Part shown: positions 21,416-56,854 of the stretch, piece by piece
Numbering within the stretch: the stretch's first letter is position 1
Layout of the letters: the number at the start of each line of letters is the position of its first letter
DNA from: Microglena sp. YARC
Lineage: Eukaryota > Chlorophyta > Chlorophyceae > Chlamydomonadales > Chlamydomonadaceae
NCBI GenBank assembly: GCA_022414725.1
Contig: CM039466.1
Span: 35,585,065-35,649,064 of the forward strand
Direction of reading: 5' to 3'
Length of the DNA stretch: 64,000 nucleotides
Notes under the pieces: generated by a model
Database searches by the model: none
The model's input: only the letters and a program-made list of their open reading frames with translations
Told to the model about the DNA's origin: nothing
Position numbers and translations under genes: made by a program

Positions 21416-21429
21416 GGCTTTATCGAGGT

Positions 21430-22780
21430 ATGACGATTGCCGGAATGTAACGATGCGAATGCCAGACTTCAGAAGAAGGAGCGATTGCGATGCGCTGGGA
21501 TTGCTGAACGCAATTTCGCGTTCCGGTTGTTAGTCCCCTTCAATGAGTCAAAGGTGAAAGGTAGGCAGATTATCCCTGTAGTCCTGGATTCACAGGCGAG
21601 GGCAAGCCCCTGCACCTTTTGATAGTAAGGAAGGCCCGTCAGCCCTGAAGTACAACTTATAGTTTCAAAAGCACCCTTCGTCCCTTCCTCTGATATTATT
21701 TTTCATTGAGATCTGTTGGATTTTGTTGCTGGATATTATTATGTAATTGTTACTGCAGCTATAGTTCTTTATCCAGCCCTTCCAATTTTCAGTCCTTTCT
21801 ATTTCCAGGACAAATTTCAGTCATTTCTTTTGATTGGATTGCTTGCACTTTATGGGAATAGCCTCGTCAGTGAATGGAGGTCTATCGCCCTTGGGCAGTT
21901 GCAGAAGGCGACAAGGGGCTCGACATGGTCTTCTTTCTGTCTGCCAGATCCGTGGGTCAAGAGGGAGCTGCGAATGCTTTCGCATCCCGGCTGACTTTCG
22001 CATCCGTTCTTCTTGAGAACGGATCCGTTCTTCTTCAGAACGGATCCGTTCCGATCCCTGGTTCCGATGACGCATCCGATGATGTGGGCGAGCATTTAAG
22101 AATCTTTCTTTGACGAAAGGTTTATGCAGCGGAAATGGGGGCTGTTTGCCGCGTGAGGAAGGCGACAAGGAAAAGAAAAGAAAAGCAGTACGCCTAGTCG
22201 GCGTGAATTAAGGAAGCAGACCAAAGGAGAAGGCGACAAGGGGCTGGAAGGGGATCATGATGTGAAAGGATTAGCAGCCTCCCTCTCGACCCACGGATCT
22301 GACAGACAGAAAGAACCACGTTCCGAGCCCTAGTTCCGATCTGGTTCCGATGACACATCCGATGGAGAAGGTGGCGAAATTGGACGGCAAAGTCACAGAG
22401 GGGTGTTGAACGGATGTGTCCTAGTATGCTTCACTTCCTTGCTCTCTTGCTTCTTTGCATCGTTGCTTTGTTGCTTGTTCCCTGTGATTTTCTATTTGGG
22501 TATGGTTGGAAGACCCCCCCCTGATGCTGTGAAGCTAGATTGTATCGGGTCAACTGTGGCCTGTCTTGTACTGAAACGACCAACGCCGATAGACCTTGTC
22601 CGACTGCGAAATTCCTGCGAAAGAGCAGTAGCAGTATCGGGTGCATGAGTAGCAGGTAGAGTAGAGCCGTGTCTATAATATAACTAAGCCATGTTCGCCA
22701 TCGGGGTGATGAGAACGGTGGCGCATTGGGGCGAATTAGACATGTGCGGGAAAAGGTTAAATGTCGGCTGAGAAAACGCC
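21430..22780. other. Intergenic: inverted copies and a GGATCCGTTCTTCTT repeat
   Basis: No gene recognised. 22003-22058 has about three copies of GAACGGATCCGTTC-type palindromic sequence. A segment at about 21943-21975 (CAGATCCGTGGGTCAAGAGG) recurs inverted at about 22268-22305. The motif GGTTCCGATGACGCATCCGA also occurs twice (22058, 22340). The plus frame 22403-22648 has a hydrophobic start but no family I know. This region would hold the gene B promoter, but no element stands out. Confidence 0.5.
22773..22776 (-). terminator. RNA polymerase III T-run for tRNA-Gln
   Basis: TTTT on the minus strand ten bases past the 3' end of the tRNA gene (GGCGTTTTCTC), the normal pol III stop signal. Confidence 0.7.
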
Positions 22781-24655: not shown

Positions 24656-24656
24656 T

Positions 24657-26242: not shown

Positions 26243-26690
26243 CGAGGCTATGAGGAGCGAAGAGCCACACCAGGCAGCCCACTATGAGCAACCCAACACA
26301 TAGCGCCCTAGCCGCTTGCACTAAGCACGCCTATCCTTCATAGAAAAAGCAACAGTATGACGTCAAGGGGGCGGCGAGCGCAGGAACGGCCCCGCCAGGC
26401 AGTCCGTAATAGGACCACGACCACACACAGCGCCCTTGCCACTTGCACTAAGCACGCCCATCCTTCATAGCAACTGTATGACGTGGAGGGGACGCCAAGT
26501 GCAGGAACGGCCCCGCCAGGCAGCCCACTCTGAACACCATCATCACCCCCTGAGCCCTGCCACCTTGCACGGTGCACGCCCATCCTTCATAGCAACAGTG
26601 TGACGTGGAGGGGGCGGCGAGCACAGGATCTGCCCCGCCAGGCAGTCTGTAATAGGACCACCACCACACACAGCGCCCTAGCCACTTGCA
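26243..26690 (-). repeat. Tandem copies of gene C terminal exon 3' of its stop codon
   Basis: Four further partial copies of the exon end lie at about 26243-26345, 26350-26470, 26475-26595 and 26600-26690. On the minus strand they retain codons for the membrane segment (VARALCVGLLIVGCLVWLF, GVMMVFRVGCLAG) and parts of the basic tail and KDGRA end, in shifting frames. All lie downstream of the true stop, so they cannot be translated as part of the protein unless alternative acceptors are used. Confidence 0.85.
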
Positions 26691-27065
26691 CTAAGCACGC
26701 CCATCCTTCATGATGACTGTGTGATGTGATCGCCGGCGCGAGCGTGTGAACAGCCATGCCAGGCAGCCCATGATCATCACCATCATCACCCCCAGAGCCC
26801 TGGTGATCTGAACCAGCGTGTCGAAGTGGGGACCATTGAGCGCACTAATGTGCTGTGACATCAGTTGGGTCAGGTTGGTTCGCATCTGGTCAAGGATCTT
26901 ATATTGGACTTGCGCGACCATATGCTTAGTCACCTCCTGTATTTGGGTTTCGTTCCAGTGGTCTTCCTCCAGGTGTACTGCCTTCTGGTACTGCCCATCG
27001 TCGAACATGGACAGCAAGGTCCAGCAGGAGCCTTGGAGGTCGCCTAGGTGTCGGATGAGGCAGGC
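26691..27065 (-). CDS. Gene C terminal exon Z (membrane anchor)
   Basis: The acceptor CACACACAG|GCC opens phase 0 and TAG at 26691-26693 closes it. It encodes 124 residues. ACLIRHLGDLQGSCW completes the last Cys-rich repeat (GSVQ from the previous exon). A helical stretch follows with two N-glycosylation sequons (NET, NLT). Next are a hydrophobic segment (ALGVMMVMIMGCLAWLF), a basic stop-transfer FTRSRRRSHH and the tail TVIMKDGRA. Topology by analogy with GLG1: lumenal repeats, short cytosolic tail. Confidence 0.85.
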   Translation of the reverse strand, partial: ACLIRHLGDLQGSCWTLLSMFDDGQYQKAVHLEEDHWNETQIQEVTKHMVAQVQYKILDQMRTNLTQLMSQHISALNGPHFDTLVQITRALGVMMVMIMGCLAWLFTRSRRRSHHTVIMKDGRA

Positions 27066-30000
27066 CTGTGTGTGGGGGGGGGCAGGGTAGGGGTGAGTGA
27101 TGGGTGGTGGCCTAGGTGGCTGAGGAGGCAGGCCTGTGTGTGTAGGGGGGATCAGGATAGGGGGAGTGGTGGGGTGGTGGCCTAGGTGGCGGAGGAGGCA
27201 GGCCTGTGGGTGGGGTAGGGGTGGTGGGTGGTGGGTTGGGACTTAGGTGGCAGAGGAGGCAGGCCTGTGTGTGAAGGTGGGTTGGGGTGGGGGGTGGGGG
27301 GTGGGGGACGAGGTTGGTGGTCTGTGAGTATGTGATGGAGGAGGCAAGCTGGGATGTTGGGGAGCAGGGTAGGGGTGGGTGGTGGGTGGTGACCTAGGTG
27401 TCGGATGAGGCAGGCCTGTGGGTGGGTGGGTGGGGGAGAGTAGGATGGGGTAGGATGGGGTGGCTAGGGGTGGGGGGAGGTCGGTTGTCGGTGAGTATGT
27501 GGTGGAGGAGGCAGGCCTGTGGGGGGGAGGGGGAGGTTGGTGGTCGCTTGTGTGGCGGATGAGGCAGGCCTGTGGGGTGTGTGTGTGTGGGGGGGTGAGG
27601 TGAGATGGCTAGGATGGGGTGGTTAGGGGTGGGGGGAGGTTGGTGGTCAGTGAGTATGTGGTGGAGGAGGCAGGCATGTGGGGGGGAGGGGGGAGGTTGG
27701 TGGTCGCTTATGTGGCGGATGAGGCAGGCCTGTGGGGGGGGGTGAGGTGAGATGGGGTAGGATGGGGTGGTTAGGGGTGGGGGGGAGGTTGGTGGTCAGA
27801 GAGTATGTGGTGGAGGAGGCAGGCATGTGGGAGGAGGGGGGAGGTTGGTGGTCGCTTATGTGGCGGATGAGGCAGGCCTGTGGGGTGTGTGTGTGGGGGG
27901 GTGAGGTGAGATGGGCTAGGATGGGGTGGTTAGGGGTGGGGGAGGTTGGTGGTCAGTGAGTATGTGGTGGAGGAGGCAGGCATGTGGGGGGAGGGGGAGG
28001 TTGGTGGTCGCTGATGTGCGGATAAGGCAGGCCTGTGGGGGGGGTGAGGTGAGACGGGGTAGGATGGGGTGGTTAGGGGTGGGGGGAGGTTGGTGGGTCA
28101 GAGAGTATATGGTGGAGGAGGCAGGCATGTGGGGGGGAGGGGGAGGTTGTGGTCGCTTATGTGGCGGATGAGGCAGGCCTGTGGGGGGGGTGAGGTGAGA
28201 TGGGCTAGGATGGGTGTTAGGGGTTAGGGGAGGTTGGTGGTCGGTGATTGTGTGGTGGAATAGGCAGGCATGTGAGGTTGGGCGGGGTGGGTGGTGGGGG
28301 TGGGGGGAGGTTGTTGGTCGGAGAGTAGTTGGTGGAGGAGGCAGGCATGCGGGGTGTTGGGGGGAGGTTGGTGAGCGGTGAGTATGTGGTGGAGGAGGCA
28401 GGCCTGTGTGCGTGTGTGTGTAAGTGTGTGCGTGTGTATGTGGGAGCTTGATAGTCCGTACGTGGTGCAGGAGGCAGGCCTGTGTGTGCGGGGGTGGGGG
28501 TGGTGGGGTGTGTGTGTGGGGGGGGTGGGCGGTGAGTATGTGGCCGAGGAGGCAGGCCTGTGGGGTGGGGCGGGGTAGGGGTAGGTGGTGGTGTGGTGGG
28601 TGGGATGGGGTGGGTAGGGGTGTGGTGGGGTGGGAGGGTGGAGTGAATGCGAATCTGTGCACCACTACCTACCTGGAAAAAGCCAGCCACTAAATGTGGC
28701 GCCATGGTGTGGTGGGTGGGATGGGGTGGGTAGGGGTGGGTAGGGTGGTAGGGGTGGGTGGGGGTAGGGTGGTGGGGTGGGATGTGGTGGGTAGGGTGGG
28801 GTGGGTGGGTATGGAATGTGAGGTAGGGTGCGATGGGATGGGATGTGGTGGAGTGAGTGGGTGGGCATGGAATGTGGGGTGGGCTGGGGTGAATGCGAAT
28901 CTGTGCACCACCACCTACCTGGACAGAGCCAGCCTCTAAATGTGGTGCCATGGTGTGGTGGGTGGGTAGGGGTGGGTAGGGGTGAGTGGGGTAGTGGGGT
29001 GGGGTGGGATGGGATGTGGTGGGTAGGGGTGGAGTGGAGTGGGGTGGGCATGGAATGTGAGGTAGGTGGGATGGATTGTGGGGTGGGCTGGGGTGAATGC
29101 GAATCTGTGCACCCACCACTACCTGGACAGAGCCAGCCTCTAAATGTGGTGCCATGGTGTGGTGGGTGGTAGGGGTGGGTAGGGGTGAGTGGGGTAGTGG
29201 GGTGGGGTGGGATGGGATGTGGTGGTAGGGGTGAGTGGAGTGGGTGGGCATGGAATGTGAGGTAGGGTGGGATGGAATATGGGGTGGGCTGGGGTGAAAG
29301 CGAATCTGTGCACCACCACCTACCTGGACAGAGCCAGCCTCTAAATGTGGTGCCATGGTGTGGTGGGTGGGTAGGGGTGGGTAGGGGTGAGTGGGGTAGT
29401 GGGGTGGGTGGGATGGGATGTGGTGGGTAGGGTGGAGTGGAGTGGGTGGCATGGAATGTGAGGTAGGTGGATGGATTGTGGGGTGGGCTGGGGTGAATGC
29501 GAATCTGTGCACCACCACCTACCTGGACAGAGCCAGCCTCTAAATGTGGTGCCGTGGTGTGATCCACCTTGCACCACTGTCTGACGTCATCGTCACAGGG
29601 GGAGGTGAGGGGCAGGCCAACGCCGTACTTATACAGGTGGACCCGAAGTACAGCCGCCACCTCAGCGCGACACATGTCGCTGAGAGCAGACGCATGGTCA
29701 GACAGGCAGTACAGCTTTGTCTTGGACTGTAATTCATCAGCATCCACAGCCTCGGGGCACAGCGCAAGTATGTCGGAGTCACATGCGTCCTTTAGCCTAG
29801 GGTTTAGGCTGTACTTGAGCCTAGAGTGCTCGATGTGTTTGAGGAGCACGGCCTTGCAAGGGGGCGGGAAGTGGGGCTGGTTCATTGCCTCTCGCAGACA
29901 CATGAGCACGCCTGTGCCGCCGTGTTGGACCTGAAGAGTGGGTGGGTGAGAGGGTGGGTGGGAGTGTGAGTGGGTGGGTGGATGAGAGGGAGGGTGAGAG

Positions 30001-33000
30001 TGGGTGTGGGAGGGTGGGTGGGTTAGTGGGTGGGAGGGTAAGAGGGTGCATGGGAGGATGAGTGCGTGGGTGGATGAGAGGGAGGGTGAGAGTGGGAGTG
30101 GGAGGGTGGGTGGGTTTATGGGTAAGTGGGTGGGGCTGGTTCATTGCCTCGTGCATGCACATGAGCACGCCTGTGCCGCCGTGTTGGACCTGGTGGGTTG
30201 GTGGGTGGGTGAGAGGAAGGGTGGGTGAGAGTGTGAGTGGGTGGGTAGGTCTATGTGTTAGTGGGTGAGTGGGTGGGGCTTGTTCATTGCCTCCTGCAGA
30301 CACATGAGCACGCCTGTGCTGCCGTGTTGGTCCTGGTAACACACCAACTCACTCACCTACCCCCCCCCCACACACACACACACCTACACACACACACACC
30401 ACCGTAACCTACATCTGAGCAGAAAGTGCTGATGGCGAGGGGGCACACCCGCATGATGTTCTGGTTCAACCTCAAGATGCTACCACCTCTAGCACACTCA
30501 CACACCAACTCACTCACCTACCCCACCCCCCCCCCACACACACACCTACACACACACACCACCGTAACCTACATCTGGGCAGAAAGTGCTGATGGCGAGT
30601 GGGCACTCCCTCATGATCTTCTCGTTCAACCTCAAGATGCCACCACCTGTAGCACACACACATACCAATTCACTCACCCACCTACACACACTCACACACC
30701 AACTCACTCGCCCATGTACCCCCCCCCCCCCCCCCCACACACACACACCCACACCACCCACACACACAAACCCACCCACCTACACACCCACACCCACAGT
30801 AAAAACCTACATCTGAGCCGAACGTGCTGATGGCGAGGGGGCACACCCGCATGATGTTCAACCTCACGATGCCACCACCTCTAGCACACACACCAACTCA
30901 CTCGCCCACCTATCCCCCCCCCCTCACACACACACACCCTCACCCACCCTCACCCACCTACCCACACACACCAACGTAACCTACATCTGAGCAGAACGTG
31001 CTGATGGCGAGTGGGCACTCCCTCATGATCTTGGGGTTCAACCGAACGTCCTCATGCTCCAGTAGCTCCACCTGATCTTCAGCCTCGCGACAAGCCGGGG
31101 ACAAGTGATCCCGGCTTTTGCGTAGGCAGGCGTGCATCGCACCACCACCAGTGTCCGCACCATGGCAAAACCTGCAGGGTGTGCAGGTGAAGGCGCATGT
31201 GTGTGAAAAGCAAAATAAATGAAATAGAAAAGACAGAAATGAAATAAAACAAAATAAGGTGAAGTAAATATAGCTAGCACGCCGGGGAGGGGTGATCTCG
31301 GTCGTTAACACGCGTGCATCGCACCACCACCAGTGTCTGCACCATGGCAACATTTGCAGTGATTACGTGGATAAGTGCATGTGAGCGAAAAACAAAAGAA
31401 GAAGGAATCAAAATAGATAGCAAGCCGGGACAAGTGATCTTGTTGTGGTGTAGGCAAGCGTGCATCGCACCACCACCAGTGTCTGCACCATGGCAAAACC
31501 TGCAGTGATTACGTGGATAAGTGCATGTGAGCGAAAAACAAAAGAAGAAGGAATCAAAATAGATAGCAAGCCGGGGACAAGTGATCTTGGTTGTGGTGTA
31601 GGCAAGCGTGCATCGCACCACCACCAGTGTCTGCACCATGGCAAAACCTGCAGTGATTACGTGGATAAGTGCATGTGAGCGAAAAACAAAAGAAGAAGGA
31701 ATCAAAATAGATAGCAAGCCGGGGACAAGTGATCTTGGTTGTGGTGTAGGCAAGCGTGCATCGCACCACCACCAGTGTCTGCACCATGGCAAAACCTGCA
31801 GTGATTACGTGGATAAGTGCATGTGAGCGAAAAACAAAAGAAGAAGGAATCAAAATAGATAGCAAGCCGGGGACAAGTGATCTTGGTTGTGGTGTAGGCA
31901 AGCGTGCATCGCACCACCACCAGTGTCTGCACCATGGCAAAACCTGCAGTGATTACGTGGATAAGTGCATGTGAGAGAAAAACAAAAGAAGAAGGAATCA
32001 AAATAGATAGCAAGCCGGGGACAAGTGATCTTGGTTGTGGTGTAGGCAAGCGTGCATCGCACCACCACCAGTGTCTGCACCATGGCAAAACCTGCAGTGA
32101 TTACATGTTTAGGTGCCTGTGAGCGAAAAACAAAAGAAGAAGGAATCAAAATAGATAGCGAGCCAGGGACAAGTGATCTTGGTTGTGGTGTAGGCAAGCG
32201 TGCATCGCACCACCACCAGTGTCTGCACCATGGCAACACCTGCAGGGTTCACGGGTGAAGGCGCAAGCGCGTGAGAAATAAAATCAATGAAATAGAAGAT
32301 GCAATAAATAGCAAGCTGGGGACAACTAATGCCGGCTATTGCGGAGGCACGCGTGCATCGCACCACCATCAGTAAAACCTGTAGGGTTTGCATGTGCGAA
32401 AATAAATGAAATACAATAGAAAAAAATAAGGTAATATAGATAGGTAGGCCAGCATGCATCGCACCACCACCAGTGCCCGCACCATGGGAAAACCTGCAGG
32501 GTTTGCGGGTTAAGGCACATGTGTGTGAAGAAAAAAAAAATGAAATAGAAAGTACAATAAATAGCAAGCTGGGGACAAGTGAGGGGTTAATGCGCAGACA
32601 GGCGTGCATTGCACCACCACCAGTGTCCGCACCATGATAACACCTGCATGGTTTACGGGTTAAGGTGCATGTGCGTTGATGGAATAACCTGATGCTTGCA
32701 AGTTGACGAAACGCACAGATTTTAAACCTACAGCTATTTTGAATGACAGAGCATGCAAAAAATTCATAAAAATTCAAGCAATTAAATGCATTCAAATCAC
32801 GTTGATTAAATTAAATTGAATGGGATAAAATCGAATTAAATATCACAACATTAGATAAATAAAATAAAAATTAATATCAATTACAATCCATTAAAATCAG
32901 AATTAATTAAATCCATTGAATTAAGAATTAATTAAATCCATTGAATTCAGAATTAATTAAAAAATAATATCAATTACAATCCATTGAATTCAGAATTAAT

Positions 33001-36000
33001 TAAATCCATTGAATTCAGAATTAATTAAAAAATAATATCAATTCCAATCCATTGAATTCAGAATTAATTTCATTTCATTCGGGACGCCCCTCCAGACGCC
33101 CTTCATTTTGAAGTACAGAGCATGCAAAAAAAAGTGTGGATCATTATGTCATTTATTTTATATACAAGTATGTATAAATACGCCTTTTATTTGTTTCATA
33201 GATCAGGCTGGGTTAGGTGTGGCTAAGTATGTCATTTATATATTATATATCAGGTGTGGATCATTATGTCATTTATAATATATAAAAATGTATGTATACA
33301 TATGTCATTTTTATTTTATAGATCAGGCTGGGTCAGGTGTGGCTAAGTATGTCATTTATATTATATAAAAATATATGTATACATATGTCATTTATGTTTT
33401 ATAGATCAGGCTGGGTCAGGTGTGGCTAAGTATGTCCTGTATATATTATAGATCAGGTGTGGATCATTATGTCATTTACATTATATACAAGTGTGTATGT
33501 ACATGTCATTTATGTTTTATAGATCAGGCTGGGTCAGGTGTGGCTAAGTATGTCATTTATATTATATAAAAATGTATGTATACACATGTCATTTAGGTTA
33601 TATAGATCAGGCTGGGTCAGGTGTGGCTGAGTATGTCATTTATATATTATAGATCAGGTGTGGATCATTATGTCATTTATATATAATAAATATGGTGATG
33701 ATGATTATGTCGTTTATATAAAATATGCCATGTAGTATATGCTATAATGTTATTACGATATATGATATGTTTATATATCATACATCATTTACTATAATGT
33801 ACATGTTATATGCTATATTAGTATATATTACATTGATTAATTATATGTTATATTTTATATATATTTTGTATATTATATATTATATGCATATATTACATTT
33901 ATGTTTATATATATTATATATACTACCCCTGATTACCCTATATATATTAATATATAATTATAACAACCGTGCGAGGGGCTTACTTCTGTGCATCCCCCTT
34001 GCACGACTGCATGAGATCAAAGTCAAGTCGCAATATATAATCACAAAATGTCATCAGAAACCAACCGCACACAGTGGTCATTATCCATTGCGACTATGTA
34101 CTGTGACTACCGGTTATAATGTATGCTATATTACCCTATATATATTATAACAACTGGGCTAGGGGCTTACTTCTGTGCATCTGCCGTGCATGACTGCATG
34201 AGGTCGAAGTCAAGTCACAATATATAATCACAATATGTAATCACAATATATTATCACAACATTTATTCACAATCTATTATCACATCCTATCATCACAATA
34301 TATAATCACAATGTGTGATCAGAAACCTAGCGCACATAGTGGTACTTATACGTTGCGACTATGTACTGTGACTACCAGTTTATATTGTATGCTATATTAC
34401 CCTATATAAATTAATAATATATATATATAACAACCGGCGTGGGGCTTACTTCTGAGTATCTGCCTTGCACGACTGCATGAGGTCGAAGTCAATTCGATAG
34501 TCCTCCACCACAAAGCCCAGCAACCGAATGATCTGCCTCCGACACTCCGGACTGCTTATGTGTCCCCGTTTCTTTTGCAGACAGGCCAGCAGGCGACCCT
34601 TGCCGGGTTCAATGGCATCGCATAGTGAGTGGATGTCGTCGGAGCAATCGTTGCGGAGGGAGGAGAGGAGGCGGATGTCGGAAACAGCGTTGGCCATGCG
34701 CTCGGTGAGGCCTTGCCGGCAGTCGGCTCCGAAGTCAGGGTGTCGACCTGTCGGGCAGAGGGGGTTGGGTAAGGTTGGGCTGGGTTGGGTTGGTTGGGTT
34801 TTGGGTTGGATGGTGTGTGGGTATGTGGTGTGTTGGAGTGGATGGTTTGGATGGGTTGGGGCCGGGTTGAATGCCATCGCATAGTGAGTGGATGTGGTCG
34901 GAGCAATCGTTGCGGAGGGAGGAGAGGAGGCGAATGTCAGAAACGGCGTCGGCCATGCGCTCGGTGAGGCCTTGCCGACAGTCAACTCCGAAGTCAGGTG
35001 TTGTCTGGGTGGGGGGGGGGGGGCAGAGTTGGGTTGGGTTGGTTGGGTTGGTTGGTTGGGGTTGGGTTGGGTTGGTGTTGGGATGGGTTGGTGTTGGGTT
35101 GGGTTGGGTTGGGTTGGTGTTAGGTGAGTTGGTTGGGTTGGGTTGGGTTGGGTTGGTTGGGTTGGGTTGGGTTGGTTGGGTTGGTTAGGTAGGATAGGAT
35201 AGGGTAGGGTAGGGTAGGGTAGGTAGGGTAGGTAGGGTAGGTAGGGTTGGTGTTGGTAGGTAGGGTAGGGTAGGGTTGGTGTTGGGTTGGGTTAAGGTAG
35301 GGTAGGCAGAGCAGAGGTAGGGTTTGTTGTGCCGGTTGGGTGGGTGGAGTCAGAGTGTAGCCTGTGGGTGGGGAGGTGGGGGTGGGTGGAGAGGGATTGG
35401 CGTGGTTTATTTTGGCGTGGCTTTCTATTGGGTGTCAGGTTTGGGGTGGCCCCCTGGGTATTGGGTGGGTGGTGTGGGGTGGTTTAGTGTGTGTGTGTGC
35501 CTTAACCTTGCATTGGCTAGACAGTCTACAACCGCAGCCCCCTAATATTTTGGGTGGTGGGGTGTGTGAGTGGTGTACATACCTTGCATTGCTAGAGACA
35601 ATCTACGACTGCATCCCCCTGATAATATGTTGGTGTGGGAGTGGTAGGGGGTGTTTGTGTGTGGGCGTGGTTTGTGTGTGGGCAATTGTAGTGTGTGTGC
35701 CTTACCTTGCATCAGCTTTTAAAAAAAAAATAGCCCCCACAGTCTACGACCGCAGCCCCCCTGGATTCGTTATGTATGTGTGTGTTTGAGTGTGCCTTAC
35801 CTTGCACCTGCTGGACACTACAATCGCAGCCTCCTGGATATTAGGTGATAGTTTGATTGGTGGTTTGGGGTCAAAAAGCGTCTGGGTGTGTGGGTGGTGT
35901 GAAAGTGGCCTTACCTTGCAACCTGCTAGACAGTTCTAACGACCGTAGCCCTCTGGATATTTGGGTGGATGGTTTGATTGGTGTGTGGGTTTGGGTGTTG

Positions 36001-39000
36001 GGTGTGTGTGTTGTATGGTGGTGTGTGAGTGTGCCTACCTGCACCTGCTAGACAGTCTACGACCGTTATAGCCCTCGGGATATTTGGTGATGTTTATTTT
36101 GGTGTGTGGGGTGTTGGGGTGTGGGTGGTGTTGTCTGTGGGTTGAAGTGTGCCTTACCTTGCACCTGCTAGACAGTCTACGACCGTAGCCCTCTGGATAT
36201 TTGGGGTGGGATGGTTGATTTGGGTGGGTGGGGTGTTTGGGGAAATATGTGTGGTGTTGTATGGTGTGTGTGGAGTGGCCTTACCTTGCACCTGCTAGAC
36301 AGTCTACGAACCGTAGCCCTCGATATTTGGTGGGATGGTTTGAAATTTGGTGTGGTGGTAGGTTTGGGGTGGTTTGGGGTGTGTGGTGTTGTGTGGTGTG
36401 GTGTGGAGTGTGCCTTACCTTGCACTTGCTAGACAGTCTACGACCGTAGCCCTCTGGATATTTGGGGTGGGATGGTTTGATTTTGAGTGGTGTGGTTGGG
36501 GTGTGTGGTGTGTGGTGTGTGGAGTGCCTTCCTTGCACCTGCTAGACAGTCTACTTAACCGTAGCCCTCCTGGATATTTGGGGGGATGGTTTGATTTGAT
36601 GTGGGTGGGTGTTTGGGGTGTAGAAGCGGTGTGTGTTGGTGTGTGGAGTGTGCCTTACCTTGCACCTGCTAGACAGTCTACGGCCGTTGCCTCTTGGATA
36701 TTTGGGGTGGATGGTTTGATTTAAGTGGTGTGAATGGTTTTGGGTGTGTGGTGGCAGTTGTGTTCAGTACGACAGTACGCACCTAAATCCATACCTACTC
36801 GTTTCCCTGAAAATTGAGACGCGTGCAGTCCTGCTCACGACACATACTTGCATAGTCACTTCCATTGGATACAAAGTGGCATAAATTTTGCTGCCTGCTC
36901 GAATTTATATGATCAGCCATACCACTGAAAATCCCGGGATGCCCTCTACATAGTTTCTAATTGAAACCGACGTCAAATAAGGGAAAAAAAGTTTCAGTCA
37001 GGGAATGTTATGATACAAAATATGTACCGACTCAAACCGTTCTCACTCTAAAACCCCGTACCGTACCGTATCTGTACCGTATCCGTACCCGTATCTGTAC
37101 TACACAACCCTGTTGTGGTGTGGTGTCCTTACCTGCATCAGCTAACAGTCTACACGACCTGCAGCCCCCTGATATTGGTGGTGTGGTGTTGTTGGTGTGG
37201 ATTTTTTTTAAAAGGCTGAGTACTTTGGTTTGGGTGGGTGTGTGGTGTGGTGTGTTCCTTTCCTGCAATCGGCTAGACAGTCTACACCGCAGCCCCTGAA
37301 TATTTGGTTTGTGGTGGTGGTGTGGGGTGTGGATGGGGTAGTTTGTTTGGGTGGGAGGTGGTGTGTTGTGTTGTGTAGAAAATGGGTGAGTGTGGGTGTG
37401 GGTGTGATGGGGTAGTTGGTTGGTGGGTGGTGGGTGTGGTGGGTTGTGGGTGCTTTACCTTGCATCGGCTAGAGTACAGTCTACGACCGCAGCCCCCTGA
37501 TATGGACCGAGCCGCAGAAGTCCGCTCGCTCAGAAGCACAGCGCTTGTTGCCAAAATAGGATCGAAGTCGAGGTGGAGGCCCTCCTACGCCTCATTCGCA
37601 ATTACGTCGTAGCACTTGGGGCTCAGGACTGATACTCGTTAAAGAGGGGAAAGAGATGAAGGTTCGGGGTGGGGGTAGTGGGGTGGAGTGGGGTAGAGTG
37701 AGTGGTGGGTAAGGTGAGAGATGAGGGAGGAGGTAAGGTGAGCCGAGGTGGAGGGCTTGCTCCTTGCCCTCTTCACAATTACGTCATAGCACTTGGGCTC
37801 AGGACTTTGTACTGGCGTATAAAGGAGGGGAAAAGAGTATGAAAGTGGGGGGTGAGGGGTAAGGTGAGGTAAGGGTAAGGGTGAGAGGTGAGGGAGAGGT
37901 AAGGGTGAGCCGAGTGGAGGGCTTGCTCCTGTCGCCTCTTCACAATTACGTCATAGCACTGGGCTCAGACTTGTACTGGTTAAAGGAGGGAAAGAGATGA
38001 AGGTGGGTCGAGGTGAGGGTAAGGGTAAGGTGAGAGTGAGGAGGAGGTAAGGTTGAGCCAGGTGCGAGGCTTTCTCCTGTCGCCTCTCTCACAATACCAT
38101 AGGCACTTGGGGCTCAGACTTGTACTCGGGGTTAAAGGGAGCGGGAAAGAGATGAAGGTGAAAGGTGGTAGGGGTAAAGGTGAGGGTAAGGTAAGGGGGT
38201 AAGGTGAGAAGGGAGGAGGAGCGTAAGGGTGATAGTGAGGGGAGGACTGCCCCTCTCGCCTCTTCGAAAGTAAGTTGTAGCACTTTGCTCAAGACTTGTA
38301 CTACCGGCTAGGAGAGGGTAGGGGGTGAGAGAGAATCAAGGATGGGACATAGGTGTGCGATATTGTGTGTGTGTGCGTGTTGAAGGATGAGGGGGGGGGG
38401 GGGGGGGGAGGGGGGTCACACACGGTGTCTTTCCTAACACTCGCCCAATCCCCTCCCACCAACCCACACCCACCCCAACACCCACCCACCCCACCCACCC
38501 AACCTTTCATCCATCCACCCTCCACCAAACCCACACCCACCAACCCACAACCCACCCCAACCTTTGGCCCACTCCACCACATTAGAGATGCACTCTTTAG
38601 GCAGTAAGAGGAAGCAGGATGGGAGCACCTCCTTACAAAACATGCCAACACCTAATCACATCCACTCACACACCACACCCTAAAACTCCCCCACTCCCCC
38701 ACCAAAATTCATCCCTCCCCCACATTTCGCCCAACCCCTCCCACCCACCACCTTAGCGCATGCGCCTTTGAGCAAGTAAGGAGGAGCATGGTCATGCTGC
38801 ATCCTCTACAAACAGCAACACCTAATCACCCCCACCCTAAATCTCACTCACTCACCCACTTTAATGTCCATCCCCCCCACTCGCCAATCCCCTCCCATCC
38901 ACCCACACACCTGGCAATGCGCTCTTTAGCAAGCAAACAAAGGAAAGGGAAGCCCGCAGGATGGAGCACCTCAGGCTAGCTGCATCCCTTACAAGCACGA

Positions 39001-42000
39001 CTCAGCGACACATCCACACCCACGCCCTCCCACTATCCAATCCCCCACTTATATTGCAATACTGCCACCTACACACCTTGGCAATGGCGCTCTTGAGGCA
39101 AGTGAAGAGGGAAGCAGGTGGGAGCACCTCAGTTAGCTGCATCTCCTCCTGGATGCGCAACACTCAGCACATATTCCACACTCACACACATACCCACCCT
39201 CCCACATACCCACACCCACATATACATTTGCAATACTGCCCACCTACAAACCTTGGCAATGCGCCTTTGAAGACTTGAAGAGGGAAGCAGATGGAGCACC
39301 TCAGGTTGGCCTGCATCCTCCTTACACACATGCATGACTGAGCAACACATCCACACTCACACACCACCTACCATCCCACCTACCCACACCCACATATATA
39401 TTTGCATACACTCCCACCCACCCACCTTTGCAATGCCTCTCTTGAGGCAAGTAAAAGAGATATAAGCGAGATGGAGCACCTCAGGTTAGCTGCATCCTAC
39501 TTACAAGCCACGTCTCAGCACACAATCCACACTTACACACCACCTACCCTCACCACAATATATTTTTCCACCCACCCACCCACCCACCCACCCACCTTAC
39601 GAGCGCTCATTTGAGGCAAATGAAAGGAAGACAGGGGTGGAGCACCTCAGTTGCTACATCCTCCTTGCAAGCATGACCTCACATGCATCCATACGGCTAT
39701 CCTCAATATGCACATTTTTTCATCAGCCTACAACAAAATGAACTTAATTTGAATTTGAAAATCCTCCTTACATGCATGACTAGCCGAATGCCCATGGCTG
39801 CTCAAATGATATGCCACCACCTGAAACACACGATTTAAAATTTGAATTTAAATTTGAAAATCCTCCTTCCATGCACGACTCAGCGATGCGTCCATGCGGC
39901 TGTCCTCAAATGATGACGTCAGCAGCCTGAACACGACGGATTTGGATTTGAATTTAAATTTGAAATCCTCCTTCCATGCACGACTCAACGATGCGTCCAT
40001 GCTGTGCTGTCCCTCAAATGATGACGTCATAAACAGCTGAACACGACGGGATTGATTTGGATTGGATTTGGATTTGGATTTAAAATCCTCCTTACAACAT
40101 GACTCAGCGAACGTCCATTACAGTATCCTCAAATGATGACTCATCAGCCTGCACATGATGGATTGAATTTGAATTTTTAAATTTGAAAATCATCCTTACA
40201 CTGCATGACTCAGCAATGCTCCATACAGCTAATCCTCAAAATGATGACGCTCCATCAGCTCACATGATATCTGAATTTGAAATTTAAATTTGAGAATGTC
40301 CTTACATGCATGAAGCTCAGCATGCTCCAATCACGGCTTATCCTCAAATATGACGTCATCAGCCTGCTCAGGATGGATTCGAATTTGAATTTAAATTTGA
40401 AAATCATCTTTACATGCATGACGCAGCACACATCCATAAGCTGTCCTAAAATTGATGACATTCACCTCGTAGGAATGTATTTATCTGTGAGCTTGAATAT
40501 TAATATATGTGAAAATCCTCCTTACATGCATGATCAGACACAATCCATACAGCTGTCTTCAAAAAAAACGATGACGTCATATTCAACTGCATAGATGATT
40601 TGGATTTGAATCTGAATTGAAAAAATCCTCCTTACATGTGACTCAACGACCAAATCCATACAGCTATCCCACAAATATATATTCGTCAGCCGCTTAGAAA
40701 TTCATCAGTTGAGCTTGAATTTCGAATCTTGAAAATCTCCTCACACGCATAATGTCTCAAGGACCCAACACCCTTGTATTTACGCAGCCATGCCCCCTCC
40801 CCCCCCCCCCCATCCCCCCCCCCTCTATCACCCCCCCCCTTCTATTTTACACAAGAGGAACCAGAAAAGGTGGCAGTCTGATAAACCTACCCTGACCCTG
40901 TCACCCCCCCACCCCACCCTTTTGTCTTTTAAAGGAGAACAGTGAAAGGGCGCATCTGATCAGACAAACCCCTGAACCCTCAACCCCCCCTCATTCCCCC
41001 TCCCACGCCCCCCCCCCACCCTCATACCCCCATCACCACACCACACCAGACACACATACACACAACCTCTCAACACACTTACCCCCCCCCCCCCCACACC
41101 CCCCCCCCCCCCCCCCCCACACAACAACACACAACACCGGCCCACCCACCCACCCACATACACACACGCACTCTACACACGCCCCCCTCACTCACTCACC
41201 TCCAACCAACGCTCTTTGCCAACCTTGCCCAAACTCCTCAATTTTGAGCGCATGCAATCAAAATGCCGCCGACCATCCTCATAACCGGTATGTTGCCAGA
41301 GATGTGCACCTTCCACCCTTCCCCCCCTCTCCACACACACAGCTCACTCACTCAAATACACACGCTGCTTGCAAGCCTTGTCTCCAAACTCCTCCAAGTC
41401 AAGTCAGCAATCTGAAAAAAAACGTCGACCATCTGCAAGAAAATCGAGTAACTTCAGATGTGCCGGCCCTTCCTTCCGACCCCTCACACCACACACACTA
41501 AAACTCCCTCCCCCTCCCCCCCCCCCCCCCACCACACCCCCCCCCCCCCGCCCTCGCCACCCCCACGCCCACCCCCCCCCCCCTCCTCCCCCTCACACTC
41601 AACACGCTTTGCTTGCAATCGTTGTCGTCCTCAACCCCTCCAAGGTTCAGAGCGCAGCAATCAAAGATCTGTCGACCAATCTGCAAAAAATCAGTAACTT
41701 GCCAATTGTGGCCCTTCCTTCCTGACCTCACACACAAACCAACACTCCCTCCCCCTCCCTCCCACCCCCCCCCCCCCCCTGCCCCCCCCCCCCCCCCCCC
41801 ACCCCCCCCCCCCCCGCTCCCCTCGCACTCAAACACCGCTGCTTGCCATGACTCGTTGGCTCTGTCAGACTCTCCAAGTTCAGCGCGGCATGCAAATGAA
41901 ATCTTCAACCTCTCTTCAATCTCCCGAGTAATGTGCCCAGAGATGTGAGCACTCCCCCTCCACACTTCCGCGCCCCTCAGCCCCACCCCCACTCCCCCCC

Positions 42001-45000
42001 CACCCCCCACCACACACACCTCACACACTCAATACACCTCACTCACTGCAAAACACACGTCTCTCAAGCCTTCACCCTACATATCTTCTCTCTAGTTCCA
42101 TTCGCATGGCAACGTAAAGCGCCGACTCAGCGTTTCATCGAATCTGGTTATGTTTGCCCATGGATGATGTGGCTTCCATCTGTCTAAAGCATAACCTAAT
42201 GTGCCCAACACCATGCTGTCTCTACACTAAGGATGTTTCAAGAGCCAACTCTCTCTTTTGCCGCCCTCCATTCATTTTCAGCCCCCTCGTCGTGCGCCCG
42301 CCCAATGGCAGTACCATCTCAACATCACCCGGCAAGAAGAGCGGAAGGGAGAGTCCAGCCGCTCATCACCGCTCTAGCTGCGCCACCCAGTCTTAGCGCG
42401 ACACACACTGCCTGAATGTTGGGTGGTGGTTTGTGTGGTAGGTGTGGGTGATGTGCGGTTGCTGGGTGCTGGTGTTAAGTGTGGTTTGTGTGTAAGAGGG
42501 AAGGGTAGGTGTGGTGTGGTGTTGGCTGTTGTTGTTGTTGTGGGATGTTGCGGATAGGTGTTACCCCAACATCATCCCGCATGCAAGGCGGAAGATAGGT
42601 TCCAGCCACACATCAGCGGTTCGTAGCTGAGCCCACCAGTCTAGAGCTGACACACCACGACCTGAATCGTTTGGTGTGTGGGGTGTGTGTGTTGGTGTGT
42701 TGTTTGTTGTGTGTGTGTGTTTGAGATGTTTGTGAGTTGATAGGGGGATAGGAAGGTGGAGGTGGGGGGATAGTGGTGGTGTGTGTGGTGTGGGGATATG
42801 GTGGGTGGTTCCCAACATATCCCGCATGCAAGGCCCGGAGATAGTCCACCACACATCACGTTCGTAGCTCAGCCCACCAGTCATAGGCTGACACACACAG
42901 ACCTGGAATTGTGGTGTTGTGATGTGTGTGTGTGTCTGGTGTGGTGGTGTGTGAGACAGTGGTGTGGTGTGTTAGAGTGGTGTGTGGATAGGGGGTGTGG
43001 GGGGGCGGGGAGATAGGTGTGTGTGTGTGTTGGTGGGGGGGGGGATATGGTGGCGTGGTCCCAAAACATCATCCCGAGCAAGGCGAAAGGACTATTTCCA
43101 GCCACACATCAGCGTTTTAGCTGAGCCCCCAGATCTAGAGCTGACACACACGACCTGAATGGTTGGTGTGGTGTGTGTGTGTGGTTGGTGTTGTGTTGGT
43201 GTGTGTGTGTGGTGGTGTCGAGAGGTGTTGATGTGATAGGGTGGGAAGTGGTGGGGGATACTGTGTGTGTTGTTGGGGGGGATATGGTGGGGTCGTCCCA
43301 ACATCAATCCCGGCAGCAAGCGAGGATAAGTCCATCCACAACATTCACGGTCGTAGCTCACCCACCAGTCCAGCGCTGACAACACACGACCGGAATTGTG
43401 GTGTTTGTGGTGTGTGTTGGTGTGTATTGGTGTGTGGTGGTGTGAGAGTGTATGTGGTGTGTGTTGAGAGTGGGGTAGGATAGGGGGTTGGGGTGGGTGC
43501 GTGGGCGGGGAGATAGTGGTGTGTGTGTTATGTGGGGGGGGATATGTTGGCTATGTTCCCAACATCCCATCCGCAGCAATGCGGAAGGATAGTCAGCCAC
43601 ACATCAGCTCGTATCTGACCCACCAGTCTAGAGCACACATCACGAAAACCTGGAATGGTGTGGTGGTGTGGGTGTTGTGTGTGTGTGTGTGTGTGTGTGG
43701 AAGAGTGTGTGAGTTGAAGGGGAAGGGGGGGGGGGGATAGGTGGGACTGTGGTTGTGGTGGGGGGGGATAGTGTGTTGTCCCAACATCATCCCGGCATGC
43801 AAGCGGAAGAGAGTCCACCAACACATCAGCGGTCGTACTCAGCCCATCAGTCTAGGGGCAGGACACACACGGCAACCTAATGTGTGTCGGTGTGCGTTGT
43901 GGGGTGGTGTTGGTTGTTGTGTGTGTGTGGTGTCGTGTAGATGGTGTGAGTGTATAGGGGGTGGGTAAGGTGGGGTGGGGAGGGGAGTATGGGCATGTTG
44001 TCCCAACATCAATCCCGGCATGCAAGCGCAAAGGATAGGCCAGCCACACATCAGCCGTCGTAGCTCAGCTCACCAGTCTAGGGCTGGGACACACACGGAC
44101 CTGGAATGGTGTGGTCGGTGGTGTGTTGTGGTGTGTGATCGGTGTGGTTGTGTGTTAGAGTGTGTGGTGTGGTGTAGAGGTGTGTGGGATAGGGGGTGTG
44201 GGGGGTGGTGTGGTGGGGGGGGGAATAGGGTGGGTGTGTGGGTGTGTGGGTGGGTGGGGAAGGTGGCGTGTTGTCCCAAACATCATCCCGGCATGCAGCG
44301 GAAGAATGTCCAGCCAACATCACGTTCGTTAGCTGAAGCCCACCAGTCTAGAGCTGACACACACGACCTGGAATGTAGTGTGTTGTGTGTGTGTGGTGCT
44401 TGTGTGTTGTGGGGTGTGAGAAGGTTGTGTATGTGGATAGGGCGTGTGGGAAGGGTGGGGGGAGATAGGTTATGGTCGATGTGGGGGTGTGGGGGATATG
44501 CGTGGGGTTGTCCCAACAGCATCCCGCATGCAAGCGGAGATTAGGTCCAGCCCACAACATCAGCGGATTCGTACTGAACCCCACCAGTCTAGAGCTACAC
44601 ACACGACCTGGAATGTGGTGGTGTGGTGTGGTTTGTGTTGTGTGTTGGTGTTGTGGTGTGTGTGTGTGGTGAAGAATGTGTGTGAGTGTGAATAGGGGTG
44701 AAGTGGTGTGGGGGCTGGAAATATGTGGGTGTGTTGTGTGGGTGGGGGATATGTGGCATTGTCCAACATTCATCCCGGCAGCAAGCGGAAAAGAGAGTCC
44801 AGCCACCAATCAGCGGTTCGTAGCTGAGCCACCAGTCAGGCCGACACACACACCTGAATGTGGTGGGGTGTGTTGTTGTGTGGTTGTTGGTGGGTGCGTT
44901 GTAGTGTGGTGTGTGTGATGGTGTGTGTGTGGTGTGGTGTGGTGTGTTGTGTGTTGGTTGTGGTGGTGTGTGGTGTGGAGTGTGTGGTGTGGATAGGTGG

Positions 45001-45976
45001 AGTGGGGGTGTGTAGGTGGTGGTGTGGTGTGGGGGCGAATAGTGGGGTTGTGTGTGTGGGGGATATCGTGGTGTGGTGTCCCAACATCATCCGCATGCAA
45101 GCGAAGAAGATTCCAGCCAAACATCAGCGTTCGTAGCTCAGCCCACCAGCAGGCGCTGACACACACGGACCTTGGAATGTGTGGGTGTGTGTGATGTGTG
45201 TGTGGTTAGAGCGTTGTGTGTGGATGTGCTTGAAGTGTGTGTGAAAGAGTGGGGGGTGGGGGAATAGAGGTGGTGTGTGTGGTGGGAGTGGGGTGCGACT
45301 ATGTGCGTGGTCCAACATCATCCCGATGCAAGGCGAAAAGAGTCCAGCCACACATCAGCATTCTTAAGCTGAGCCCACCAGTTCTAAGCGACACACACGA
45401 CCCTGAAATGGTGTGTTTGTGCTTTTCGTGCGTGTGTGTGTAGGTGGTGTGTGTTGGTTTGGGTTGCGTGTCATTGCTGGTGTTGGTGTGTGGTTGTTGC
45501 TGGTTGGTGTGTTGGTGTCGTGTGGGAGTTGGTTTTTGATAGGTGGGGTTCGGTGGTGGTATGTGGGGCGTAGGCAAGATAGGTGGGGTGGGTCGTGAGG
45601 CTTGGGGTCGAATATGGTGGGTGTCCCAACATCATCCTCGCATGCAACGCGGAAGGAGAGGTCCATCCACCACATCACTTCGTAGCTCAGCCCACCAGTC
45701 TAGCGAACCACACACGACCTGAATGTGGTGCGTGGGTACTGTTGTGTGTGTGTGTGTGAGAAATGTGTGTGTGGTGGTGTGTGAGAGTGTGTGTGTGGAT
45801 AGGGTGTATGGGATGTGTGGGGAGATAGGTTTGTGTGTGTGTGTGTGGGCGGGAATGGGTGTGTCCAACCATTCATCCCTCATGCAAGCGGAAGGAGAGG
45901 TCCAGCCACCAACACAGCGTGTTAGCTGAGCCACCAGTCAGCGGCTGACACACACGACCTGGAATTTATCTCTCTT
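26691..45976 (-). CDS. Gene C: GLG1/MG160-like cysteine-rich Golgi membrane protein (partial)
   Basis: Minus-strand multi-exon gene whose C-terminal four exons (34747-34450, 31171-30985, 29930-29523, 27065-26691) join in phase into about 420 residues. The sequence shows several cysteine-rich GLG1 repeats. In these, a Cys...D.....C motif (CKADTQKFC, ACDSDILALC, CDDDVRQWC) is followed by a GGG.(A/V)..CL loop and then LSP.C. One C-terminal membrane segment and a short basic tail end it. In animals GLG1 (MG160, ESL-1, CFR) is a type I Golgi protein binding growth factors and selectin ligands; the role here is unknown. More 5' exons (V, U, T, S) are recognisable between 37.4 and 46 kb but carry single-base indels. 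The N-terminus is lost in or beyond the N gap. Exons are separated by junction-copy arrays. Confidence 0.8.
27070..28570 (-). repeat. About 20 copies of exon Z acceptor end
   Basis: Minus-strand units of about 50-105 bp each contain CACAGGCCTGCCTCATCCGC and often CACATAAGCGACC, the acceptor and first codons of exon Z (ACLIRHLGD). They are joined by C-rich tracts. Two alternating subtypes (CTCATCCGCCACATAAGC and CTCCTCCACCACATACTC) form a higher-order pattern between about 27480 and 28200. The large Pro/His/Thr-rich minus frames here are artefacts of these repeats. Confidence 0.9.
28571..29522 (-). repeat. Four copies of exon Y 3' end + donor
   Basis: Units of about 200-215 bp contain (minus strand) CACACCATGGCACCACATTT ... 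GGCTCTGTCCAG|GTAGGTGGTGG. This is the last dozen codons of exon Y (APHLEAGSVQ) with its donor and the intron start up to GCACAGATTCGCATTCACCCC. Copies end at about 29320, 29110, 28915 and 28670. The last has a damaged donor (CTTTTTCCAGGTAGGTAGTGG). Confidence 0.9.
29523..29930 (-). CDS. Gene C exon Y (GLG1 repeats)
   Basis: 408 nt, phase 0 at both ends, between the acceptor CACTCTTCAG|GTC and the donor GTCCAG|GTAGGT. It encodes 136 residues. VQHGGTGVLMCLREAMNQ follows FCSD of exon X to give the GLG1 loop. PPCKAVLLKHIEHSRL, LKDACDSDILALC, KLYCLSD, DMCRAEVAAVLRVHLYKY and SPCDDDVRQWCKV then supply two further Cys...C motifs. The spacing of about 60 residues between equivalent cysteines fits the family. 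Confidence 0.88.
29934..30345 (-). repeat. Two upstream copies of exon Y acceptor end
   Basis: At about 30145-30190 and 30290-30336 the minus strand repeats CCAACACGGCGGCACAGGCG ... GAGGCAATGAACCAG with a preceding acceptor-like CAG. They are separated by CCCACCCACTCACTCTCACC-type repeats. Confidence 0.85.
30346..30984 (-). repeat. Three copies of exon X 3' end + donor
   Basis: Copies at about 30410-30480, 30567-30645 and 30800-30875 carry (minus strand) AACATCATGCGGGTGTGCCC ... AGCACTTTCTGCTCAGATGTAGGTTACGG. This is the IMRECPLAISTFCSD end of exon X and its GTAGGT donor. Spacers are CACACAC and C homopolymers. Confidence 0.88.
30985..31171 (-). CDS. Gene C exon X (GLG1 repeat)
   Basis: 187 nt between the acceptor CCCTGCAG|G and the donor GCTCAGAT|GTAGGT. 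One base completes Lys from exon W to give TQKFCHGADTGGGAMHACL. RDHLSPACREAEDQVELLEH and KIMRECPLAISTFCSD follow. This is one nearly complete Cys-rich repeat: GGG...CL loop, LSPAC, then C...FC. Phases fit both neighbours. Confidence 0.88.
31305..32670 (-). repeat. 148-bp array of exon X acceptor copies
   Basis: Copies of the exon X acceptor and first 14 codons (TTTGCCATGGTGCAGACACT ... GCACGCTTGCCTAC) start at about 31313, 31459, 31607, 31755, 31903, 32051 and 32199 with a 148-bp period. Diverged copies lie near 32345, 32455 and 32604. The central five are almost identical along their whole length, including the non-coding spacer (CTATTTTGATTCCTTCTTC). This indicates recent amplification or ongoing homogenisation. 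Confidence 0.92.
32760..33080. repeat. AATTAATTAAATCCATTGAATTCAG tandem repeat
   Basis: An AT-rich short tandem repeat with units of about 27 and 55 bp built on AATTAATTAAATCCATTG. No coding content. Confidence 0.85.
33110..33960. repeat. AT-rich 90-105 bp tandem repeat
   Basis: About six units of TATGTCATTTATATTATATA ... TTATAGATCAGGCTGGGTCA plus GGTGTGGCTAAG, then AT dinucleotide-rich sequence to 33960. Low GC sets it apart from the G/C-rich neighbouring arrays. It lies in the intron between exons X and W. Confidence 0.85.
33965..34449 (-). repeat. Two copies of exon W 3' end + donor
   Basis: At about 33968-34035 and 34150-34215 the minus strand carries GACTTTGATCTCATGCAGTC ... CACAGAAGTAAGCCCC, copies of the last 15 codons of exon W (DFDLMQSCKADTQK) and its donor. 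TATAATCACAAT repeats lie between them. Confidence 0.85.
34450..34747 (-). CDS. Gene C exon W (GLG1 repeats)
   Basis: 298 nt between the acceptor GCCCGACAG|GT and the donor CTCAGAA|GTAAGC. The frame reads HPDFGADCRQGLTERMANAV, then LRNDCSDDIHSLCDAIEPG, KGRLLACLQKKRGHISSPECR and DYRIDFDLMQSCKADTQ. It has the textbook GLG1 order C.DDI..LC ... G.GR.L.CL ... SPEC ... D.R.D..L...C..D. Its end phase fits exon X. Its start phase does not fit the exon V donor as sequenced, probably because of an indel error in V. Confidence 0.88.
34862..35005 (-). repeat. Large copy of exon W 5' part
   Basis: About 135 bp on the minus strand repeats exon W from DFGVDCRQGLTERM to HSLCDGIQPG with about ten differences, then diverges into TTGGG repeats. 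It is a second potential exon start, but the codons stay open only to GIQPG and no donor is visible directly after. Confidence 0.85.
35005..35330. repeat. GGGTT / GGGTA degenerate repeat
   Basis: About 320 bp of GGTTGGGTTGGTTGGG changing to GGTAGGGTAGGTAGG. It resembles telomeric sequence in composition but the unit is mixed 4-5 bp, so it is an interstitial simple repeat. Confidence 0.9.
35490..37458 (-). repeat. About 13 copies of exon V 3' end + donor
   Basis: Minus-strand copies of GGGGCTGCGGTTGTAGACTG ... CTAGC..ATGCAAG|GTAAGG, encoding AAVVDCLA.AR with a strong donor, recur every 90-150 bp from 35505 to 37290. Spacers are GGTGTGTGG-rich. Many copies differ by single-base gains or losses. 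36790-37090 is a unique insert with a CCGTACCGTATCTG repeat (37060-37098). Confidence 0.85.
37459..37628 (-). CDS. Gene C exon V (GLG1 repeat, frame broken by indels)
   Basis: The acceptor ATCAG|TCC and donor GCAAG|GTAAAG bound about 170 nt. Successive frames read LSPKCYDVI, HLDFDPILA, RCASERADFCGSVH and AAVVDCLADAR, together one GLG1 repeat. The frame is broken at least twice. The tandem copies nearby show the unbroken form of the same segments, so sequencing indels are more likely than true mutation. Confidence 0.65.
37735..38320 (-). repeat. Four copies of exon V acceptor end
   Basis: Copies at about 37742-37810, 37915-37985, 38055-38125 and 38240-38305 carry (minus) CAAGTCCTGAGCCCCAAGTG ... 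GACGTAATTGTGAAGAGGCG, the LSPKCYDVIVKRR start of exon V. GGGTAAGGTGAGG repeats lie between them. Confidence 0.85.
38385..38590. repeat. G homopolymer and CCCACCAACC tracts
   Basis: A G run (about 38389-38416) is followed by CCCACCCACCC-type sequence. No gene. Confidence 0.85.
38590..39680 (-). repeat. About seven copies of exon U 3' end + donor
   Basis: Minus-strand units of about 165 bp contain GTAAGGAGGATGCAGCTAAC and CTCCATCCTGCTTCCCTCTTC ... GCCAAG|GTGTG. The correct-frame pieces read CKEDAANLRC and LFTCLKSAIAK. Copies lie near 38600, 38765, 38925, 39090, 39265, 39430 and 39615. CLKSAIAK joins naturally to LSPKC of exon V. Confidence 0.8.
39600..39745 (-). CDS. Gene C exon U (GLG1 repeat, noisy)
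   Basis: Only here are the two halves of exon U seen together: EDSRMDA...CK on the acceptor side and the LRCS segment on the donor side. Using the cleaner partial copies around it, the exon covers FEDSRMDASLSRACKEDAAN and a CLKSAIAK end, a GLG1 D.R.D..L..AC.ED motif. Indels break the frame, so the limits are approximate. Confidence 0.5.
39720..40740 (-). repeat. About nine copies of exon U acceptor end
   Basis: Units of about 105-115 bp contain (minus) CTGACGTCATCATTTGAGGA ... GCATGGACGCATCG and CATGTAAGGAGGATTTTC. They encode LLTSSFEDSRMDASLSRA, followed by AAATTTAAATTC spacers. The copies at 39845-40010 are cleanest; those beyond 40100 carry many indels. Confidence 0.85.
40780..41225. other. 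C-rich low-complexity tracts
   Basis: C homopolymers, CCCCACCC and CACACA runs, with a repeated AGAAAAGGTGGCAGTCTGAT-type segment at about 40860 and a variant at about 40935. No exon was recognised. Confidence 0.6.
41225..41970 (-). repeat. Copies of a further gene C exon (T) between C-rich tracts
   Basis: Four related segments lie at about 41225-41290, 41380-41460, 41610-41700 and 41835-41940. On the minus strand they read HFDCMRSKLRSLGKVGK, QIFDCCALNLGG and SFACRAELGESD in corrected frames. This corresponds to the GLG1 (G)R.FDCLR..L motif. C homopolymers up to about 30 bases separate them. None is clean enough to call as the true exon. Confidence 0.55.
42050..42420 (-). CDS. Gene C exon S region (probable, noisy)
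   Basis: The only segment where the repeat seen at 42.5-46 kb continues into longer unique sequence. Minus-strand pieces include DERLDSPFRSSC, then (in another frame) DDVEMVLPLGGR and KRELALETS. By comparison with the upstream copies (TADVWLDLSFRLACRDDV) this is a GLG1 D.RLD..FR..C.DDVE motif. Frame changes prevent a firm model. Confidence 0.4.
42430..45976 (-). repeat. About 16 copies of exon S acceptor end, running into the gap
   Basis: Units of about 190-260 bp each contain (minus) CCAGGTC or similar, then GTGTGTCAGCTCTAGACTGG ... ACGAACCGCTGATGTGTGGC and CTCTCTTCCGCTTGCATGCC. They encode ALDWW..LRTADVWLDLSFRLACRDDVG, and are separated by GT-rich tracts. Copies recur from 42545 to 45960 and the last is cut by the N run. 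Single-base indels are frequent. Confidence 0.85.
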
Positions 45977-56850: not shown

Positions 56851-56854
56851 AAGT

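Follow-up and report, generated by a model that had tools for sequence, protein, structure and literature searches.

The introns of a GLG1-like gene in the green alga Microglena sp. YARC are filled with tandem copies of the gene's own exon borders. The gene lies in a 64,000-nucleotide stretch of contig CM039466.1 (positions 35,585,065 to 35,649,064), here called the window, and all positions below are counted from the first base of that stretch. At 75% identity, 10 of the 12 splice edges probed in exons S to Z had 2 to 12 copies, which confirms the copying that the original prediction had described from the letters of the sequence. In a DUF1802 gene and a tentative third gene of the same window, whose models are partly tentative, 7 of 13 edges were copied. 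We interpret the arrays as boundary-spanning minisatellites that arise by local tandem duplication largely blind to gene structure and are tolerated mainly outside exon cores, and we put the probability of this interpretation at roughly 0.65. The original prediction knew of no named process with such an outcome, which was wrong: in lancelets such repeats are termed "mirages," as described in the relevant sections of PMC3087553 and PMC3902484.

The GLG1 gene was rebuilt on the minus strand, where exons W, X, Y, and Z form one open frame that ends with a stop codon at 26691. The product has four cysteine-rich GLG1 repeats (PF00839; E value, 2.7e-48), and the joined W to Z product is identical to the EukProt protein P0001 (gene3542-13611_t). 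Other named matches to the GLG1 product came from Haematococcus lacustris, Gonium pectorale, Sanguina aurantia, and Chlamydomonas leiostraca. Where aligned relatives span junctions W-X, X-Y, and Y-Z, they pass through them with one copy (P0008 stops at Y-Z, P0009 is without Y-Z, P0002 begins inside X, and P0007 was left out of the alignment). Exons W to Z are clean in the assembly (26.7 to 35.4 kb). We regard S, T, and U as tentative exons because the stretch from 35.4 to 46 kb is rich in indels and a gap of 1,000 N's lies just past it. At 35400 to 46000, the copies differ from one another by a high density of single-base indels and exon U is frameshifted, which suggests a poorly polished long-read consensus.

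Each splice edge was probed with the 40 bases across it, and a copy was counted if it had at least 75% identity within 5 kb. Copies of an acceptor and exon start (the 5' edge) precede the exon, and copies of an exon end and donor (the 3' edge) come after it. For the first 19 edges probed, all 66 splice-edge copies lay on the intron side of the edge they duplicate, so the predicted layout was confirmed. The two GLG1 edges missed at this threshold, W5' and T5', have one weaker copy each: a 146-nt copy with a damaged acceptor for W5' and a copy at 70% identity for T5'. Across the window, 13 of the first 19 edges and 4 of the next 6 were copied (17 of 25), and inclusion of the uncopied edges L3' and M5' of the DUF1802 gene gives 17 of 27.

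Copying is not restricted to splice edges. The end of the GLG1 coding sequence, which has a stop codon and no splice site, also has an array. Three of its four copies lie directly downstream of the gene, and the fourth ends at 24685 (the far copy of the GLG1 end spans 24685 to 24806); the exon part was 111 to 112 nt in two copies. Among the three stop codons tested, only that of GLG1 was copied (4 copies), and the DUF1802 and third-gene stop codons had none. Near the far copy is a reading frame at 24624 to 26009 that has a weak RNase H match (24624 to 25352; E value, 0.00067, below the Pfam cutoff) and is possibly a retroelement, judging by this match.

Local copying is common in the window as a whole. 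With low-complexity windows dropped from this and all other k-mer, background, and shift counts, 43.6% of complex 30-mers had a local copy, versus 0.0% in one single-base shuffle. Outside the gap and a satellite that follows it, 4,812 of 9,624 complex 40-mers (50%) were copied locally. In samples of 600 40-mers, drawn without the satellite and the stretch from 37.6 to 46 kb, 75.7 to 78.3% were copied in introns of the three genes and 32.7 to 34.8% in other stretches, the latter including the long DUF1802 intron N-A and exons M and N, which were recognized later. Even at 1 to 4191 and 56300 to 64000, where no exon was recognized, the proportion was 22 to 24%. Against this background, exon cores are spared. 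In 11 exons, copying fell with the distance of the 40-mer from the nearest exon end, from 26/44 at 0 to 9 nt to 19/40 at 10 to 19 nt, 14/37 at 20 to 29 nt, and 8/36 at 30 to 39 nt. In the cores of these exons, 38 of 216 40-mers were copied, and 27 of these 38 lay within exons W and Z. This sparing of cores is the firm part of our results, which give at most a weak indication that borders are targeted.

The original prediction had the process start at exon edges or depend on splice sites. In a rival to our interpretation, a process linked to splice junctions would seed the arrays, for instance through breaks or R-loops at the borders of transcribed exons that are repaired by copying the border. 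We compared the copied edges with a background in which all edges were moved jointly around the window, with the gap and satellite excluded (45.96 to 56.3 kb left out). A mean of 50% of the shifted edges were copied, and 9.3% of shifts reached 17 of 25 (P = 0.09); for all 27 edges, of which 17 were copied, the figure was 14.5% (P = 0.15). Positions picked at random in the introns of these genes were copied at least as often as the edges (76 to 78%, in the samples of 600). Two results weigh against our interpretation and in favor of a link to splicing. First, of the 18 edges backed by the protein models P0001 or P0004, 14 were copied (P = 0.036), a result carried by GLG1 (9/10; P = 0.024), the gene picked because of the pattern, and not by DUF1802 (5/8; P = 0.33). 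Second, at present intron lengths only 8 to 13% of arrays would be expected at an edge, versus the 14 of 23 hand-listed intronic arrays that touch one (the S5', T5', T3', and U5' arrays were not in this count). On the other side stand the array at the GLG1 stop codon, the interior intronic arrays without visible exon sequence, and the tandem copying in stretches that appear free of exons. The copied stop codon does not agree with the predicted start at edges, though the two other stop codons are uncopied. Overall, the claim of an origin at exon edges was not clearly supported within the window, and we consider a splice-linked process unlikely.

The position of the breakpoints bears on how the arrays formed. 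Pairs with an alignment that extended into the real exon were set aside, and the remaining copies are called usable. The length of the exon part was near constant in U3', X5', X3', Y3', and E5' (Table 1) and likewise in the third-gene array (64 to 66 nt in 7 of 8 usable copies; full range, 51 to 66 nt), in U5' (69 nt in 2 copies), and in A5' (37 nt in 2 copies). Most arrays represented by several usable copies have a near-constant breakpoint inside the exon, so each of these points to one founding duplication followed by later growth. The process predicted for segments containing exon edges, repeated slippage or unequal exchange, is supported. At Y3', CACACCAC is found in the exon at the breakpoint and again in the intron past the last copy, and slippage or microhomology may have given rise to the founding duplications.

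Under local duplication largely blind to gene structure, short segments (∼70 to 270 bp) would duplicate in tandem often and largely regardless of genes. Where such a duplication fell within an exon, or took in an entire exon, it would usually harm the protein and be lost. One that is intronic, or that runs from an intron into an exon end, leaves one complete exon copy. It would be tolerated, since the copy joined to the exon core remains available for splicing, which presumably ignores the others. Introns were probably once short (about 200 to 350 bp), and many tolerated duplications would therefore have crossed an exon border. A random duplication is expected to straddle an edge with a probability of 0.64, 0.58, and 0.44 for introns of 198, 229, and 343 bp, respectively, and 198 to 343 bp is the range of median intron lengths given for six relatives in the relevant portion of PMC8226300. 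The observed share of hand-listed intronic arrays at an edge, 14 of 23, falls within these expected values. Later unequal exchange or slippage would have enlarged the founder arrays into longer introns full of decoy half-exons.

Many of the copies retain a splice site. With exon-only queries, GT or AG was kept in 77 of 91 copies at 15 edges, somewhat above the exonic (74%) and intronic (66%) neighboring dinucleotides, although the copies are not independent. Decoy splice sites have thus been multiplied, as predicted. An earlier count of 59 of 62 kept sites was set aside as biased since its queries had contained the splice site. Selection that keeps the copies as decoys or as alternative half-exons regulating splicing would be in line with the retained dinucleotides, as well as with the gene model P0001, in which the U3' segment GAAVVDCLAD is present twice, as though a copy were spliced in. 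However, Haematococcus P0005 has the segment once at that place by eye (the automatic alignment set the two segments at different repeats), and P0001 is a database model of uncertain support; the doubled segment may be a gene-model error or an intron copy turned exon. Moreover, the copies have diverged at every codon position (differences of 9.9, 10.8, and 14.2%), with gaps at 99 positions, and copy number spans 2 to 12. The idea that the coding sense of the copies is under strong constraint was ranked lower, as codon positions differ just mildly and gaps are many. The sequences of the copies give no good evidence of selection, and we regard this explanation as very improbable. Least probable is an artefact in which a noisy long-read assembly inflated or scrambled repeats, as could be suspected from the indels at 35.4 to 46 kb (33 gap positions in 9 U3' copies), the 1,000-N gap, and the frameshifts of exon U, because exons W to Z are clean though many copies differ from them and the pattern recurs in three genes with differing units and copy numbers.

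Table 1. Exons and border arrays in the window (copies at 75% identity unless stated; exon part, length of coding sequence in usable copies)
Feature	Position	Strand	Copies and remarks
GLG1 stop codon array, downstream of stop	26259..26690	-	3 of 4 copies of coding end and stop; no splice site
GLG1 exon Z, last exon	26691..27065	-	Stop at 26691
Intron Y-Z, acceptor and first coding nt of Z	27066..28614	-	12 copies; 18 by exon-only query, 6 of 18 without AG; exon part 14 to 39 nt in 9 usable copies
Intron Y-Z, end and donor of Y	28632..29522	-	4 copies; exon part 39 nt in 3 usable
GLG1 exon Y	29523..29930	-	
Intron X-Y, acceptor and start of Y	29931..30337	-	2 copies; exon part 60 nt in one usable
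Intron X-Y, end and donor of X	30339..30984	-	3 copies; exon part 59 nt in 2 usable
GLG1 exon X	30985..31171	-	
Intron W-X, acceptor and start of X	31172..32650	-	9 copies, unit 148 bp; exon part 81 nt in 7 of 8 usable
Intron W-X, interior AT-rich arrays	32858..33921	.	No exon sequence seen there
Intron W-X, end and donor of W	33975..34449	-	2 copies; exon part 46 nt in one usable
GLG1 exon W	34450..34747	-	
Copy of first 146 coding nt of W	34840..35020	-	Single; acceptor damaged
Intron U-W, end and donor of U	35497..37458	-	9 copies, 13 by exon-only query; exon part 44 to 45 nt in 8 usable; indel-noisy stretch
GLG1 exon U	37459..37634	-	Frameshifts in assembly
Acceptor and start of U	37650..38300	-	3 copies, 4 by exon-only query
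Exon T end and donor	38570..39595	-	2 copies, 4 at 70% identity
GLG1 exon T, tentative	39596..39727	-	Noisy
Acceptor and start of T, array of ∼106 bp	39800..40700	-	One copy at 70%; more by eye only
Array upstream of tentative exon S acceptor (42411)	42560..45950	-	8 copies, 12 at 70%
Third tentative gene, exon 4192..4322 and array	4192..5435	+	10 copies of exon end and donor
DUF1802 exon E, last exon	9010..9143	-	In model P0004
Acceptor and start of E	9144..9940	-	4 copies; exon part 46 nt in 3 usable
Exon D end and donor	10276..10595	-	3 copies
DUF1802 exon D	10596..10797	-	In model P0004; Pfam match here
Acceptor and start of D	10798..11490	-	3 copies, 4 by exon-only query
DUF1802 exon B, tentative	12095..12151	-	Absent from P0004; neither edge copied
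DUF1802 exon A, tentative	12738..12821	-	Absent from P0004; 2 acceptor-edge copies upstream, donor none
DUF1802 exon N and its copies	19196..20454	-	Exon N is 20454..20415, 40 nt, in P0004

The DUF1802 gene at 9.0 to 22.1 kb corresponds to P0004 (gene3541), and the tentative third gene at 4.2 to 6.1 kb has only a weak, below-cutoff HisKA_7TM match. DUF1802 exons A and B and both third-gene exons are our own reading and are in no database model found. A Pfam search of 20 other reading frames gave only the DUF1802 domain and three weak matches below the cutoff. Within the array at the start of exon E, the donor edge of exon D is also found four times in inverted orientation, at 9219, 9400, 9632, and 9816 on the plus strand, with 34 to 37 of 50 positions matching (the best among 200 single-base shuffles was 30). 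Exon N has been copied whole about 10 times with both edge regions (9 copies at the acceptor edge and 10 at the donor edge). No copies were found of the edges M3' (21249), M5' (21466), and L3' (21889), all on the minus strand within 21249..21889. Inside the 7.6-kb DUF1802 intron N-A, 8.9 copies of a 251-bp unit (15024 to 17262) match at 97%; this array is more uniform than most border arrays and therefore probably younger. Directly after the 1,000-N gap, a satellite of ∼9.3 kb (46980 to 56314) consists of units of 31 to 34 bp (AGATATACCTACATAGATGTGCACTTTGCTC).

In the lancelet accounts cited above, mirages are tandem repeats spanning exon-intron boundaries, with units of 10 to 160 bp in Adh3 and globins (PMC3087553) and of 60 and 108 bp in PGBD5 (PMC3902484). 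According to those same sections, reverse transcription-PCR suggested that splicing was undisturbed, and the repeats were proposed as a source of new introns. The colinearity of the GLG1 product with the proteins of relatives would agree with undisturbed splicing in the alga, although it is no proof. The algal arrays resemble them, as so described, in that units span an acceptor and exon start or an exon end and donor, many with AG or GT. Boundaries at both the 5' and 3' sides are affected, and copies lie on the intron side of an exon core that is single copy, with the exception of exon N. In contrast to the lancelet cases, they occur in a green alga, in most edges of one gene and about half of those in two others, and they include units of up to ∼265 bp (the exon A array, with no clear period, is not in this unit list), an array at a stop codon, inverted copies, and one small exon multiplied. 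Mirages of the lancelet type are further characterized by length instability between haplotypes or cells and by concerted evolution within a cluster. Rogers-type intron gain, as cited in the part of PMC3087553 that treats it, likewise involves tandem genomic duplication with splice-site motifs, but that model yields new introns, while here no new intron is seen and existing introns appear to grow. Exon N resembles tandem exon duplication and mutually exclusive exons; such cassettes are complete exons, whereas the GLG1 copies are half exons that cannot replace an exon. The cassette layout was absent from the GLG1 arrays W to Z, where the breakpoint lies inside the exon, and was seen only at exon N. 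Introner elements are defined by near-identical introns dispersed over many loci; the present search for copies covered 5 kb around each edge. Among the matches listed in a search of open-licence literature, no title described such arrays in algae. By their layout, the algal arrays would thus belong to the mirage class in an unusually dense form, with the lineage and the density being new.

It is doubtful, though somewhat less so than a splice-linked origin, that border-crossing tandem duplication is genome-wide in this lineage and the main route of intron growth, with much intron DNA consisting of fossil half-exons that can be recruited as new introns or exons, and perhaps with transcribed exon borders favored. 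If this were true genome-wide, the alga would offer a direct model of intron lengthening and of the build-up of decoy splice sites and spare exon pieces, with readable founder breakpoints. In genomes of this type, gene prediction and homology searches would encounter many half-exons with intact splice dinucleotides, as P0001 may illustrate. The occurrence of such arrays in both lancelets and a green alga suggests a general outcome of high rates of tandem duplication and not a lineage-specific machine.
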